29,892 nt of DNA from IMG/VR virus record IMGVR_UViG_3300030331_006011, positions 4,839 to 34,730 of that record; one strand, given 5' to 3'. Numbering within the stretch: position 1 is the first letter of the stretch; every line of letters starts with the position of its first letter. The position numbers and the translations under genes are program-made. This DNA comes from a virus. Under the pieces are notes generated by a model, which was given only the letters and a program-made list of their open reading frames with translations, made no database searches and was not told the DNA's origin. Positions 10,451-14,621 of the stretch are shown here, one piece after another.

Positions 10451-11224
10451 TTACTTACTGCTCATAAGCTCGTCAAAAGCTTTATCGACATCGCTTGCGG
10501 AACTACTTTTTCCATACGCTGTAGTTTCACTAGACAAGGATTCTGCTGATGATGGGTTTACTAGTTGTTCATCGAGAATGGTGTCGATTTCTTCGGGTGT
10601 CTTTCTCTCAAAAAGAGAACCGAAATCTGGCATGCGATCGAGGAGGGCAGGGATCGCTTCCGTGTCTTCAAGCAGAGAAGATGTGTTTCGTCGCATCTTC
10701 ATGCTAGTTTGTGGGTAAGCACCGGGTGTGGTAGGCTTAGTATAGGTTAGTGTAATGTCAGTACCCTCTTGAGTGTCTGTGATGTCGCCATACTCAGGGT
10801 CAAGAATATAACCAAGAAGCAATTCGTATGCCTTCTTACCATAACCATAGACCTTAATTCCTTCACTTTCGCGGCCTCGTAAGACTACTGGTGAAAAATA
10901 TCGTGCACGAACAAAAAGAGACTTGGCTAGTTTCTTACCTTCATCGTCATTAGTCTCTGAAGATTCCTTCCACACTGCAGATGCAAAATCACAAACAGGG
11001 CATCGCTCTCCAAAGTTTCGCTTGGGACAAAGGATGCCTCCTTTATGCTCACCTACATTATAGTGGAAATACATTTCCTTTAACGGGTCGCCATCCGCTG
11101 TTGGGACAATACGAATATCTTGATCGCCCTCTTCAGGTTTAAAAAATAACGAGTCACCGTCTCGTTGACCTTCTCCTCGCAGAGAAGCAAGCTTCTTCCG
11201 CATTAGATCCATATTGATTGACAT
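10451..11224 (-). CDS. gp32: single-stranded DNA-binding protein, T4 gp32-like
   Basis: A 257-residue protein. The N-terminus (LMRKKLASLRGEGQ) is basic, like the cooperativity segment of gp32. A zinc subdomain follows: His54 or His60, Cys66, Cys75 and Cys78 (ILCPKRNFGERCPVCDF), the same His-Cys-Cys-Cys order as T4 gp32 with slightly different spacing. The C-terminus is serine-rich and ends with an acidic, amphipathic DVDKAFDELMSSK, comparable to the acidic tail through which gp32 contacts replication partners. It coats single-stranded DNA at the fork. AGGAG lies seven bases before the ATG, and a promoter plus a hairpin lie upstream. Confidence 0.92.
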   Translation of the reverse strand: MSINMDLMRKKLASLRGEGQRDGDSLFFKPEEGDQDIRIVPTADGDPLKEMYFHYNVGEHKGGILCPKRNFGERCPVCDFASAVWKESSETNDDEGKKLAKSLFVRARYFSPVVLRGRESEGIKVYGYGKKAYELLLGYILDPEYGDITDTQEGTDITLTYTKPTTPGAYPQTSMKMRRNTSSLLEDTEAIPALLDRMPDFGSLFERKTPEEIDTILDEQLVNPSSAESLSSETTAYGKSSSASDVDKAFDELMSSK

Positions 11225-11275: not shown

Positions 11276-11304
11276 AATGTATCACTCTTGCTCTATCTTG
11301 TCAA
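11276..11304 (-). promoter_or_regulatory. sigma70-type promoter of the gp32-like gene
   Basis: Minus-strand TTGACA at 11304-11299 (inside the end of the upstream gene), a 17-base spacer and TACATT at 11281-11276. The -35 is perfect and the -10 matches four of six bases, including the key T, A and final T. Expected start near 11269. Confidence 0.65.
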
Positions 11305-12148
11305 GAGTATTTTTATTTGTTTGTGTCGCATTTGTATGGGCCACGACAAACCCAAAGTCTGATAATTCTGTTTCATAAATCGAATATGAAATCTTCCGAA
11401 AAGTGTTTCTAGGCTTACTTTTCAAGATGTCAACAAGTTTTTTATGAAGACCAACTTCCCCCTCAAGTCTTTCAGAATTTATACACATATAATAACACAG
11501 TTCCCGCTCCATGTCAAGGTCATAAAGCCACATTTCTGACAATTTTTTCATATCTAACATACCAACGGAGCGAATGCGACTAATATCGCTTGGCTTAGAC
11601 ATATTGCCGACATGTGGCTCAGTGTGTTCAAAATAATTTAAGTAATGCACGGAAGAATAAATTGTCTCATTTAATGTATCGTAGTAAGTCTTAAGATTGA
11701 TGGACGAATGTATTTTTTCAATACTCTCATTAGAAAAGATAGTGAACGATCTAAACTTGCCGGATCTTGCATACTCTTGCAAAACACCAAATACAGTATT
11801 TTCAACCATTTTTGGAATACCAGTTAAAAGTTCGGTGTCTGGTTTGATATAAAATACATCAATTTCTTTGTCTTTAATTTGCTCTAAAATTCCAAGACTG
11901 TAAATAGAACTTAATGATGCTCCGGCAACAAAGACTTGTACTCTGTCTTTGAGATCAGCAAAAAAAGTGGTTAAATCCGGTATGTTTTGCTCGTATTCTT
12001 CTGGATTTTCATACACATTTAATTTGTGTTTTCGCTTTGATCGTTTCTTAACTTTGCTGTTAAGCATGTACACATCGTACTGTGGAATGCTTGAAAATTT
12101 TTCAGCAATCGCAGAAGCTGCATTGCCGATACCTACAATAGAAATCAT
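11282..12148 (-). CDS. divergent FtsZ/tubulin-fold protein (putative)
   Basis: A 288-residue protein that follows the FtsZ layout from end to end. The first strand and T1 loop are ISIVGIGNAASAI (2-14), comparable to the VGVGGGGGNAV start of FtsZ. QVFVAGAS (71-78) matches strand S4. GASLSSIYSLG (76-86) replaces the GGGTGTG signature loop. IDVFYIKPDTEL then a helix (111-128) match S5-H5, SFTIFSNESIEKI matches S6 (SLITIPNDKLL), and YYDTLNETIYSSVHYLNYF (155-173) matches central helix H7, with Asn160 at the guanine-contacting position. SDISRIRSV lies at the T7 position. Residues 215-272 match the FtsZ C-terminal domain. GTP-binding loops are degraded, so activity is uncertain. Its start overlaps the polymerase stop (ATGA). 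Confidence 0.6.
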   Translation of the reverse strand: MISIVGIGNAASAIAEKFSSIPQYDVYMLNSKVKKRSKRKHKLNVYENPEEYEQNIPDLTTFFADLKDRVQVFVAGASLSSIYSLGILEQIKDKEIDVFYIKPDTELLTGIPKMVENTVFGVLQEYARSGKFRSFTIFSNESIEKIHSSINLKTYYDTLNETIYSSVHYLNYFEHTEPHVGNMSKPSDISRIRSVGMLDMKKLSEMWLYDLDMERELCYYMCINSERLEGEVGLHKKLVDILKSKPRNTFRKISYSIYETELSDFGFVVAHTNATQTNKNTLDKIEQE

Positions 12149-13347
12149 ATTTTTAACTCTTCCAAATCTTGGTAGTTTTTACCCGCACTTAAGTTTACCA
12201 TGAATTTGTCTAATTTATTATTAGAAAATATCTCTTTAATTTCTGGTACCAGATCTCTGTCCTCGTCCGATAAATCAATGGCGATCTCATCGTGAACAAT
12301 GTGGGACACAAAACTTTTCTTATCTTGTAAAAATTTATCAATCTCTACTGCTCTGTCAACAACAAGATCTGATGTTGTGCTTTGTACAATATAGCTGAGG
12401 GCTCTTCTTCTGTCTACAGGGATATTTCTACCAAATGGAGTTGAAACCTCGCCATCTGAATAAAAGGCTTCAACAATCGCATCGCGATCGTAAATTTTCG
12501 ATTGGATGACTTCTGATTCTGGATTGTACAGCCAACCAAAAAACATTACCTTCGCATCATCACGATTTAAAATCACATCATCATTGTTAATCGAATTGAA
12601 TACATTTGCGATGTTCCATGCATGAATATCGTCTTCTGGCTGTGGGTGACCCAAGAGGGATAAGACTGTACGAACTTCTGCCCCATTGTAGTCAAGTGAT
12701 AAAAACCAGTCGTTGTGAGGCTTTACAATCCTTCTGAAGTCCTTTTTCATGGTCAACATGGGAAATGATGCTGGGTATGTGGCAAGACGGCCTGTAACAG
12801 TTCCAAAGAGGTTATAATCGATAAACTTATTTCCGTTTAATATTTTTTGTAAACCCAGACGGTTATTGGTAGATGTAAAAAGCGACTTGCAGTCAGAAGT
12901 TTGAATATTTAAATCTTGCTCTCTAATCTTGTGAAGTAATTTATATGATTTATTAAGGAAATCATAATTATCCGGCTTTTTCATTGTCGCAAAGACATAT
13001 TCAGTTATTTTATTCTTTACTTCACAAAATTGAACTAATGAGTCTTCAGGTATTAGATCAAAAATGCAATGTTCTCGCATGTTAATTTTGGCTATCTTGA
13101 AAGATTTGTGGAATGCCTCCATTTTTTTGATTGAGGATTTTAATTCTTTTTCATATTCAGGAGGGCACGAGTCTAGTAAATTTTTACCACCATTATATAA
13201 CCATGCATATTCTATATTTTCATCACGGATAGAGCCAGTGTATCGCCATGTTCTTGTTAGGCCCGATGGAATGTTCTCAAAATGAAGCCGACCATCACAA
13301 TACACACCCACACATTCTGTTTTATCGTCAAGTGATTGAAAATACAT
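12145..13347 (-). CDS. polA: family A DNA polymerase, polymerase domain only
   Basis: A 400-residue protein, far shorter than T7 polymerase (704) or Pol I (928). The polymerase domain is present: FGTVTGRLAT (181-190), motif A LSLDYNGAEVR (217-226, catalytic Asp219), motif B RDDAKVMFFGWLY (262-274) and motif C VHDE (351-354, catalytic Asp353). Motif B spacing matches E. coli Pol I exactly: Arg262, Lys266, Phe270 and Tyr274 equal R754, K758, F762 and Y766. Residues 1-170 are thumb-like and hold no 3'-5' exonuclease motifs. The proofreading exonuclease must be another polypeptide, not visible here, or is absent; Rhodothermus phage RM378 is a known case of split activities. AGGA lies five bases before the ATG. 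The start overlaps the upstream stop (TAATG). Confidence 0.93.
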   Translation of the reverse strand: MYFQSLDDKTECVGVYCDGRLHFENIPSGLTRTWRYTGSIRDENIEYAWLYNGGKNLLDSCPPEYEKELKSSIKKMEAFHKSFKIAKINMREHCIFDLIPEDSLVQFCEVKNKITEYVFATMKKPDNYDFLNKSYKLLHKIREQDLNIQTSDCKSLFTSTNNRLGLQKILNGNKFIDYNLFGTVTGRLATYPASFPMLTMKKDFRRIVKPHNDWFLSLDYNGAEVRTVLSLLGHPQPEDDIHAWNIANVFNSINNDDVILNRDDAKVMFFGWLYNPESEVIQSKIYDRDAIVEAFYSDGEVSTPFGRNIPVDRRRALSYIVQSTTSDLVVDRAVEIDKFLQDKKSFVSHIVHDEIAIDLSDEDRDLVPEIKEIFSNNKLDKFMVNLSAGKNYQDLEELKI

Positions 13348-14621
13348 TAATATCCTGATGTTGATGATGTTGATGATGAACTAGAAGAGCCTTGAGAAGT
13401 TTGCTCTTTCTGCTCATCATCCATTGTAACATTATTAATGAGGTCTGTCAAGGAGCCACTGTATGTGTATGTTTGTGCTACCACCTTTTCAAATGTACTA
13501 ATTGCTTTTGGTAGCCCTTTCATGCTCAATAAAGACATTGAATCGTTTATTATTTTTTTTTGTTGATGACCTTTTAATTTTAGCTTATTTTCTTTAATTC
13601 TAATACTCATATATTTCTTCAAAAAGTAGTTGAAAGGATATTTTTTTGTAAATTGTTCAATGGTAAAATCTTCTGGAGTTATAATTCTCTGAATAGTCCT
13701 ATTATCCTTAGAATTGTTGCATATTTCTTTTTTTATGTAGGGTCGTTTAACGGCTTTGTAAGTACTGAACATTAAATTTTTAAGACTGCTAACGTCATCG
13801 ATATAGGCCGGTATGTATCCTCTGGAAAGAATATCAAATGTACTAGTAAAATTGCAATTACTAGTATTTCTTGCATATGTTAGCATTTCGGGCGAGCCTA
13901 TGTTTGCAACAAGTCTAAACGGATTTGATTTATCAACCCAAAAACCAAAACTTCTGCATGCATTAAGATAAAATTTCCAATTTGGACTCTCTTTAAAATT
14001 CTTTATTTTTTCATCATCATTAGCAAAGCTTTGATCAGATATTTCAATCACTAAACCCGATACATTCATGGGGCAATATTTACTTTTTATAAATCCAGAA
14101 AATGTTAATGGCATTTCGTCTATCATTTTAGAAACAAAATTATCAAAAAACATAATAAATTGATTAAAATTATCAAATTTAATATCCTGTTCTAAAACTT
14201 GTTCACTCATAACCTCGACAATTTTCTGCAAGTACTCTGAATAAAGTGTTTGAGGATCTTGATATGCTTTTGTAACTTCAAGTGTGCTGAGAAATTCATC
14301 ATTTTGATTTATTTCGCCAGTCAATATTTTCTTTTTAAACTGTTGATTAAGATCATTAAATGCTTGAACAACAAAAGCGGCTGCTTGTAAGCCGGTCTGC
14401 TCTGTATTAGTCTGAGATATTGTTGTTAAAGGCATGCCTGCAGTGTCAAATACTATCGGTAAAAACAAGTTATCAACTCGGCCGTAAAGATATCTCTCAG
14501 CGAAATAAAAATCTATTAGATTCTCATATTCACTTTCATTAACAATAACATCATAAAATATTTTTTTTGCATATAGAGATTTTGCTTTTCCATTGTTGTT
14601 TTCTTTAAATAAAATTGCCAT
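13347..14621 (-). CDS. hypothetical protein, probably tail/baseplate associated
   Basis: A 424-residue protein that I do not recognise. It is soluble-looking, rich in Phe, Tyr, Asn and Lys, has no signal peptide or membrane segment, and ends in a low-complexity serine/threonine tail (about residues 408-424). A central segment (KSKYCPMNVSGLVIEI, then WKFYLNACRSFGFWVDKSNP and VANIGSPEM) looks like a compact domain. It follows the hub-like gene by 20 bases with a GAGGG ribosome binding site, and the polymerase gene is translationally coupled behind it. Position suggests a baseplate role; no activity can be proposed. Confidence 0.65.
   Translation of the reverse strand: MAILFKENNNGKAKSLYAKKIFYDVIVNESEYENLIDFYFAERYLYGRVDNLFLPIVFDTAGMPLTTISQTNTEQTGLQAAAFVVQAFNDLNQQFKKKILTGEINQNDEFLSTLEVTKAYQDPQTLYSEYLQKIVEVMSEQVLEQDIKFDNFNQFIMFFDNFVSKMIDEMPLTFSGFIKSKYCPMNVSGLVIEISDQSFANDDEKIKNFKESPNWKFYLNACRSFGFWVDKSNPFRLVANIGSPEMLTYARNTSNCNFTSTFDILSRGYIPAYIDDVSSLKNLMFSTYKAVKRPYIKKEICNNSKDNRTIQRIITPEDFTIEQFTKKYPFNYFLKKYMSIRIKENKLKLKGHQQKKIINDSMSLLSMKGLPKAISTFEKVVAQTYTYSGSLTDLINNVTMDDEQKEQTSQGSSSSSSTSSTSGY

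Follow-up and report, generated by a model that had tools for sequence, protein, structure and literature searches.

The window, a 29,892-nucleotide stretch of an IMG/VR virus record, carries on one strand a gene for a 288-residue protein that sits among replication genes (Table 1). Based on Pfam and PHROGs matches, the gene order is family-A DNA polymerase (polA), tubulin-fold gene, gp32-type single-stranded DNA-binding protein (SSB), UvsX, 5'-3' exonuclease and DnaB-type helicase. An earlier interpretation made from the letters alone (the sequence-only reading) had placed the gene between a polymerase and an SSB gene and proposed translational coupling to the polymerase. The matches of the flanking genes and the shared ATGA agree with both proposals, and placement of such a gene in a polymerase-coupled replication operon is, as that reading held, unusual. 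The arrangement recurs among about 200 related loci: polA lies directly upstream in about 160 of them, SSB is the next downstream gene in 149, and the overlap is exactly four bases in 135 of the 158 loci where it could be measured. Overlaps with polA are present in sister clades too. The operon had also been called T4-like. This label holds for the lineage, because related long contigs carry a Gp23 capsid gene and genes of the gp32, UvsX and gp41 types are present in the window, but not for the polymerase, which is of family A and not of the T4 gp43 type.

Table 1. Features of the polA-linked tubulin-fold gene and its neighbours (window coordinates)
Feature	Position	Strand	Basis or remark
polA-linked tubulin-fold gene	11282..12148	minus	ORF, ATG to stop, 288 aa
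Family-A DNA polymerase (400 aa), upstream member of the overlapping pair	12145..13347	minus	PF00476, E 4.8e-12
ATGA overlap, polA stop / tubulin-fold start	12145..12148	minus	four bases
gp32-type SSB, next gene downstream	10451..11224	minus	PF08804, E 5.1e-14; phrog_1192
T1 loop, residues 6-11 (GIGNAA)	12116..12133	minus	G6 and G8 invariant, 64/64; hhalign to PhuZ T1
T4 loop, residues 76-85 (GASLSSIYSL), glycine-poor tubulin signature	11894..11923	minus	64-member alignment, tree
QEYARSG, residues 124-130, end of H5, family hallmark	11759..11779	minus	Q124, Y126, R128 invariant
Asn140 at T6	11729..11731	minus	invariant, 64/64; aligned with E. coli FtsZ N165 by hhalign
H7 helix, residues 152-175	11624..11695	minus	DSSP, conservation, FtsZ alignment
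Asn160, guanine-recognition end of H7	11669..11671	minus	invariant, 64/64
Place of T7/H8, residues 178-191, loop	11576..11617	minus	no helix H8, no NxDxxD; DSSP of two models

The closest cultured syntenic locus is that of Flavobacterium phage immuto, which has its replication genes in the same order; the two hypothetical genes between its polA and SSB both fail to match the polA-linked tubulin-fold family. In the window, a short family-A polymerase replaces the gp43-type family-B enzyme within an otherwise T4-like replication operon. Directly upstream of polA, at 13347-14621, lies a gene for a conserved 424-residue protein that has no significant match in Pfam, PHROGs or PADLOC; a defence match was likewise absent from the PADLOC results. 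In one small sub-clade, the end of the tubulin-fold gene is overlapped by a gene for PspA/IM30 (Vipp1-like, ESCRT-III-type), which places a membrane-remodelling protein beside a tubulin-fold protein (L061:5807-6502, PF04012 E 5e-15; L126:5807-6160, which clusters with the L061 gene). Other cargo following the tubulin-fold gene includes a glutamine synthetase (PF00120, L131:694-1722) and a GmrSD-type protein (PF03235, L125:727-1962). This variety of cargo suggests that, in one clade, the site is an insertion hotspot.

The polA-linked genes form a large, unnamed and previously uncharacterised family that is present in hundreds of marine IMG/VR contigs. A single scan of IMG/VR with the window protein recovered 60 loci, and a profile scan recovered at least 558 confirmed stretches; a second, divergent profile extended to members at 32-61% identity to the L061 protein. 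Each of fifteen long contigs has one full-length copy. The phages that carry the family are marine, T4-like and roughly 130-200 kb in size. They show no sign of being cyanophages, because psbA is absent from six long contigs. Four members that span the diversity of the family found no match by tblastn among 50,697 named phages, and a pattern-limited scan of GTDB, with one genome per species (84,980 prokaryote genomes), found no relative.

The sequence-only reading had proposed that the protein has the two-domain tubulin/FtsZ fold, based on an overlay made by eye. The peptides that it quoted are all found where it placed them: VGIGNA at residues 5-10, FVAGAS at 73-78, VFYIKPDTEL at 98-107, FTIFSNESIEKI at 135-146, Asn160, and SDISRIRSV at 187-195. 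Structure prediction followed by structural search upheld the proposal, and the outcome that the reading itself had named as refuting did not occur. AlphaFold2 gave a confident model from a 61-sequence alignment (pLDDT 90.1, pTM 0.89), and its best 50 Foldseek matches in the PDB are all FtsZ, TubZ or tubulin (E 3.7e-11 to 1e-9, probability 1.0, TM about 0.68). The result was repeated on a divergent relative, the sister-clade member L163 (about 37% identical; pLDDT 95.2, pTM 0.92), for which 50 of the 50 best matches are FtsZ, TubZ or CetZ (best E 6.7e-13). Both models have the succession of elements from S1-H1 through H7 to the C-terminal domain. In a library of viral structures (BFVD), six matches to the window protein have E below 0.001, and the top two are annotated as FtsZ or cell-division proteins. 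The polA-linked protein is therefore predicted to have the tubulin/FtsZ fold, and the layout seen by eye is more than chance.

No sequence search is significant for tubulin by itself, so membership of the superfamily leans on the predicted structures. In Pfam and PHROGs, the window protein and its relatives have no significant tubulin match (the best Pfam Tubulin E-value among the relatives is 0.0058), and the PF00091 cut-off is not reached. FtsZ appears at E 0.26 in a sequence search of the PDB, where phmmer and a narrow profile gave chance matches only. The protein might instead be a Rossmann-type NAD- or nucleotide-binding protein, unrelated to tubulin, in which a GxGxxG loop imitates T1. 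Weak Pfam matches to TrkA_N, Sacchrp_dh and GARS_N are in line with this, but two independent confident models have only tubulin-superfamily proteins among their 50 best PDB matches, and these span both domains. Further, epimerases appear in the viral library only behind five full-length matches, including the two annotated as FtsZ or cell-division proteins, and the asparagines at the putative guanine-contact positions are aligned and invariant. We consider a Rossmann-type identity almost certainly wrong; at the level of predicted structure, it is refuted.

To place the nucleotide loops, we compared a profile of 64 diverse members with profiles of PhuZ (7 sequences) and FtsZ (38 sequences), with reversed profiles and neighbouring gene families as controls. 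The comparison used hhalign in local mode, which was informative; global mode collapsed. The matches are weak: P is 0.0014 for PhuZ and 0.016 for FtsZ, whereas decoy and reversed profiles gave 0.026-0.63, so that FtsZ falls barely under the best decoy. Their positions are right: the PhuZ alignment covers T1 through T4 and the FtsZ alignment covers T6 to the start of H7, with the GTP loops in register. Asn160 pairs with FtsZ D187, located at the guanine-recognition end of H7, which agrees with the proposal that this residue of an H7-like helix lies at the guanine-contact position. We take N140, N160 and Y155 to correspond to Asn206, Asn228 and Tyr224 of tubulin, respectively. The residue at the stacking position, 155, is Tyr in 61 of the 64 members and Phe in one more (aromatic in 62/64). 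In E. coli FtsZ, N165, the counterpart of N140, hydrogen-bonds guanine (PMC8456036).

Eleven positions are invariant across the 64-member alignment (6, 8, 76, 85, 124, 126, 128, 140, 160, 211 and 276). Of these, five lie among 16 nucleotide-loop positions (hypergeometric P 1e-4, with the 16 positions being our own choice). The sequence-only reading had described the GTP-binding loops as degraded. As a general description this is not supported: the two T1 glycines and both asparagines are fixed, and the stacking residue is nearly so. The description fits T4, and only in the clade that includes the window. Here the signature GGGTG(S/T)G is absent, being GASLSSI in the window protein and G(S/A)SxSSxYxL across the clade. 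Most sister-clade members have G(S/A/G)(G/S/A)xI(S/A)G, for example GSGKISGATL. When 72 members were placed in a maximum-likelihood tree, those with the glycine-poor T4 fell on one side of a single branch (support 100/100), which indicates that it is a derived state restricted to the window's clade. The guanine pocket of the polA-linked protein, as judged from conserved residues, is apparently kept.

The opposite face of the protein is different. As previously suggested, the catalytic loop is cut to one Asp and there is no canonical T7: NxDxxD is absent from the 64-member alignment and from both models, and DSSP finds no helix H8 after H7 in the model of either the window protein or L163. The single T7 Asp of the window protein sits in a loop, and its model has no H8, the element that would follow in the canonical interface. 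Protofilament contacts in phiKZ TubZ, tubulin and FtsZ involve T7, the base of H8 and S9 (PMC3678025), and T7 completes the GTPase site of the next subunit (PMC9405007). We infer that the polA-linked protein could bind a guanine nucleotide but would not offer the activating face. Some residual catalysis may exist, because residue 188 is acidic in 50 of the 64 members; in an alignment by eye, it corresponds to the second T7 Asp of FtsZ.

In the three long contigs that are closest to the window, we found a gene for another tubulin, FtsZ-like, that scores above the PF00091 cut-off (33.9 bits against 33). This 378-residue protein has GVGGGGN at T1, GGGGGTGSS at T4 and SFDSKDL at T7, the last aligned with FtsZ NLDFADV and containing DxxD; it matches FtsZ from T1 through T7 (phmmer E 2.5e-10). 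A strongly conserved acidic N-terminal tail precedes T1. The gene occurs at L329:5464-6597 (IMGVR_UViG_3300025127_000013) and in L332-L415, where it is 89-100% conserved across loci, and is directly preceded by a fused SbcCD-like gene. All nine contigs that span both positions have both tubulins, in the same orientation and 39-42.5 kb apart (for G079, the spacing was counted around the contig ends). Fifteen contigs have the second tubulin alone, and in all 15 the expected place of its partner lies beyond the contig end. The same explanation applies, with the roles exchanged, to three clade contigs and the window record, which have the polA-linked gene alone. One contig of 154 kb that has the second tubulin without its partner seemed to break the co-occurrence; this was rejected, as the place of the polA-linked gene is past its end.

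The record that includes the window (34.7 kb) is a fragment that ends before the expected place of the second tubulin. Its phage very probably has this gene as well, because a 99% identical relative, L002, carries both. Mean pairwise identity is 93% for the second tubulin and 60% for the polA-linked protein. There is no detectable sequence similarity between the two, and we rejected recent duplication of the second tubulin as the origin of the polA-linked protein on these grounds. Separately, tblastn with the second tubulin found a weak match in Bacillus phage G (gp138, JN638751.1 78812-79360, unannotated; E 4e-4, 25% identity).

In the sister-clade genomes G061, G062 and G063 (184-204 kb), a second tubulin was not found by BLAST, by PF00091 or by reading downstream of the SbcCD-like gene, which is at about the expected place with no tubulin after it. 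A very divergent copy may lie elsewhere in these genomes. Their polA-linked proteins have glycine-rich T4 loops. In other words, the glycine-poor T4 coincides with the second tubulin (nine genomes versus three). This link reflects one evolutionary change, so it is not independent evidence and does not count as nine observations.

How might the polA-linked protein function? The reading that we favour, with about even confidence, is that it is a scaffold or adaptor with a tubulin fold that binds GTP, hydrolyses it poorly and is linked to the replication of the phage; in the window's clade, it probably works with the second tubulin. It would bind GTP or GDP without completing the GTPase site of a neighbour and, because of this, could serve the replication machinery of the phage as a nucleotide-binding scaffold or adaptor. 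The probable partnership with the second tubulin in the window's clade might, for example, involve docking of the nucleotide-bearing face on filaments of the second tubulin, at the end where T7 is exposed, so that the polA-linked protein would act as a cap or anchor that joins filaments to replicating DNA. In sister clades where no second tubulin was detected, the gene still adjoins polA, and for this reason we put the link to replication first, as probably the older function. Cooperation with the second tubulin would have been added to it in the window's clade.

Alternatively, the protein may itself assemble into PhuZ-like cytoskeletal filaments and thereby position phage DNA. Assembly would use a non-canonical interface, and acidic residue 188 would be the catalytic residue. 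Arguing for this are the predicted tubulin fold, the apparently kept guanine pocket, the acidic residue in most members at the by-eye position of the second T7 Asp, and the finding that PhuZ is the best profile match among those compared. Counter to this, H8 is absent in both models and position 188 is not invariant. In addition, where the window's clade has a second tubulin with intact loops, it is this protein that evolves far more slowly, as expected of the filament former. We regard self-assembly as unlikely. A role confined to the polymerase, in which the tubulin fold was reused for an accessory subunit or nucleotide sensor and the cytoskeletal role was lost, seems to us quite unlikely. 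It would account for the ATGA overlap with polA and the linkage to SSB, seen also in the sister clades that lack a detectable second tubulin, and for a family-A polymerase as short as 400 residues, but the invariant residues cluster in the nucleotide loops and there is no obvious new surface.

Very unlikely, in our view, is the idea that the protein inhibits host division by capping host FtsZ filaments at the T7 end with its nucleotide-bearing top face, a rival to which the decoy for host FtsZ suggested by the sequence-only reading also belongs. Phage-encoded inhibitors of FtsZ are known, and a protein with its nucleotide face kept and its T7/H8 face missing, as predicted here, has the shape expected of a one-sided cap. 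However, division inhibitors are usually small early genes, and strict translational coupling to polA, together with a location among the replication genes, fits a role in replication better. Returning to the scaffold or adaptor, a more specific and tentative version, which we think doubtful, is a two-component tubulin cytoskeleton in marine T4-like phages. In this scheme, the slowly evolving GTPase tubulin would make the filaments, and the polA-coupled, non-hydrolysing tubulin would cap them or anchor them to the replicating genome.

Tubulin homologues are already known in phages, with PhuZ and others described from jumbo or huge phages (PMC7162821, PMC9123017, PMC7824862). In the open-licence literature consulted, phage tubulins are discussed mainly for nucleus-forming jumbo phages and TubZ partition systems, and a search of it found no report of a polymerase-coupled phage tubulin gene, of two tubulins per phage, or of the polA-linked family. 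Like PhuZ (phiKZ TubZ), the polA-linked protein is a phage protein with a predicted tubulin/FtsZ fold whose T1 and T4 align in register. It differs from PhuZ in that it has 288 residues and is encoded in the polA operon of T4-like phages with genomes of 130-200 kb, and tblastn with PhuZ and the PHROGs profile for PhuZ (PHROG 4733) did not match it. FtsZ provides its best structural matches, and the guanine-contact residues of T6 and H7 align in register. Unlike FtsZ, to which it is about 8-16% identical, it is phage-encoded, lacks GGGTGTG, NxDxxD and H8, and has a reduced C-terminal domain.

The FtsZl-1 and FtsZl-2 families (Makarova and Koonin 2010, PMC2875224) keep GGGTG(S/T)G, come from cellular genomes and carry long additional domains. 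In contrast, the polA-linked family lacks GGGTG(S/T)G and was not found in the pattern-limited scan of prokaryote genomes; with regard to this comparison, a PspA/Vipp1-like membrane-remodelling gene adjoins the family in two contigs. Two phage FtsZ-like proteins in BFVD, A0A6J5RW92 and A0A8S5UFG9, are full-length fold matches to the polA-linked protein (TM 0.72 and 0.64). They are annotated as FtsZ or cell-division proteins and, at 387-452 residues, are unlike it in length; they are probably closer to the second tubulin.

Looking across these comparisons, tubulin-fold proteins can now be placed in marine T4-like phages that form an abundant and unnamed group. One copy is hard-wired to the phage DNA polymerase, and one clade has an intact second tubulin as well. 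The spatial organisation of phage replication becomes testable outside the jumbo phages. The polA-linked protein offers a natural case of a tubulin that apparently retains nucleotide binding without the GTPase-activating half, and lends itself to the question of what purpose that half serves. If the two-component cytoskeleton is real, it would parallel, in a virus, those tubulin systems in which one partner subunit is inactive.
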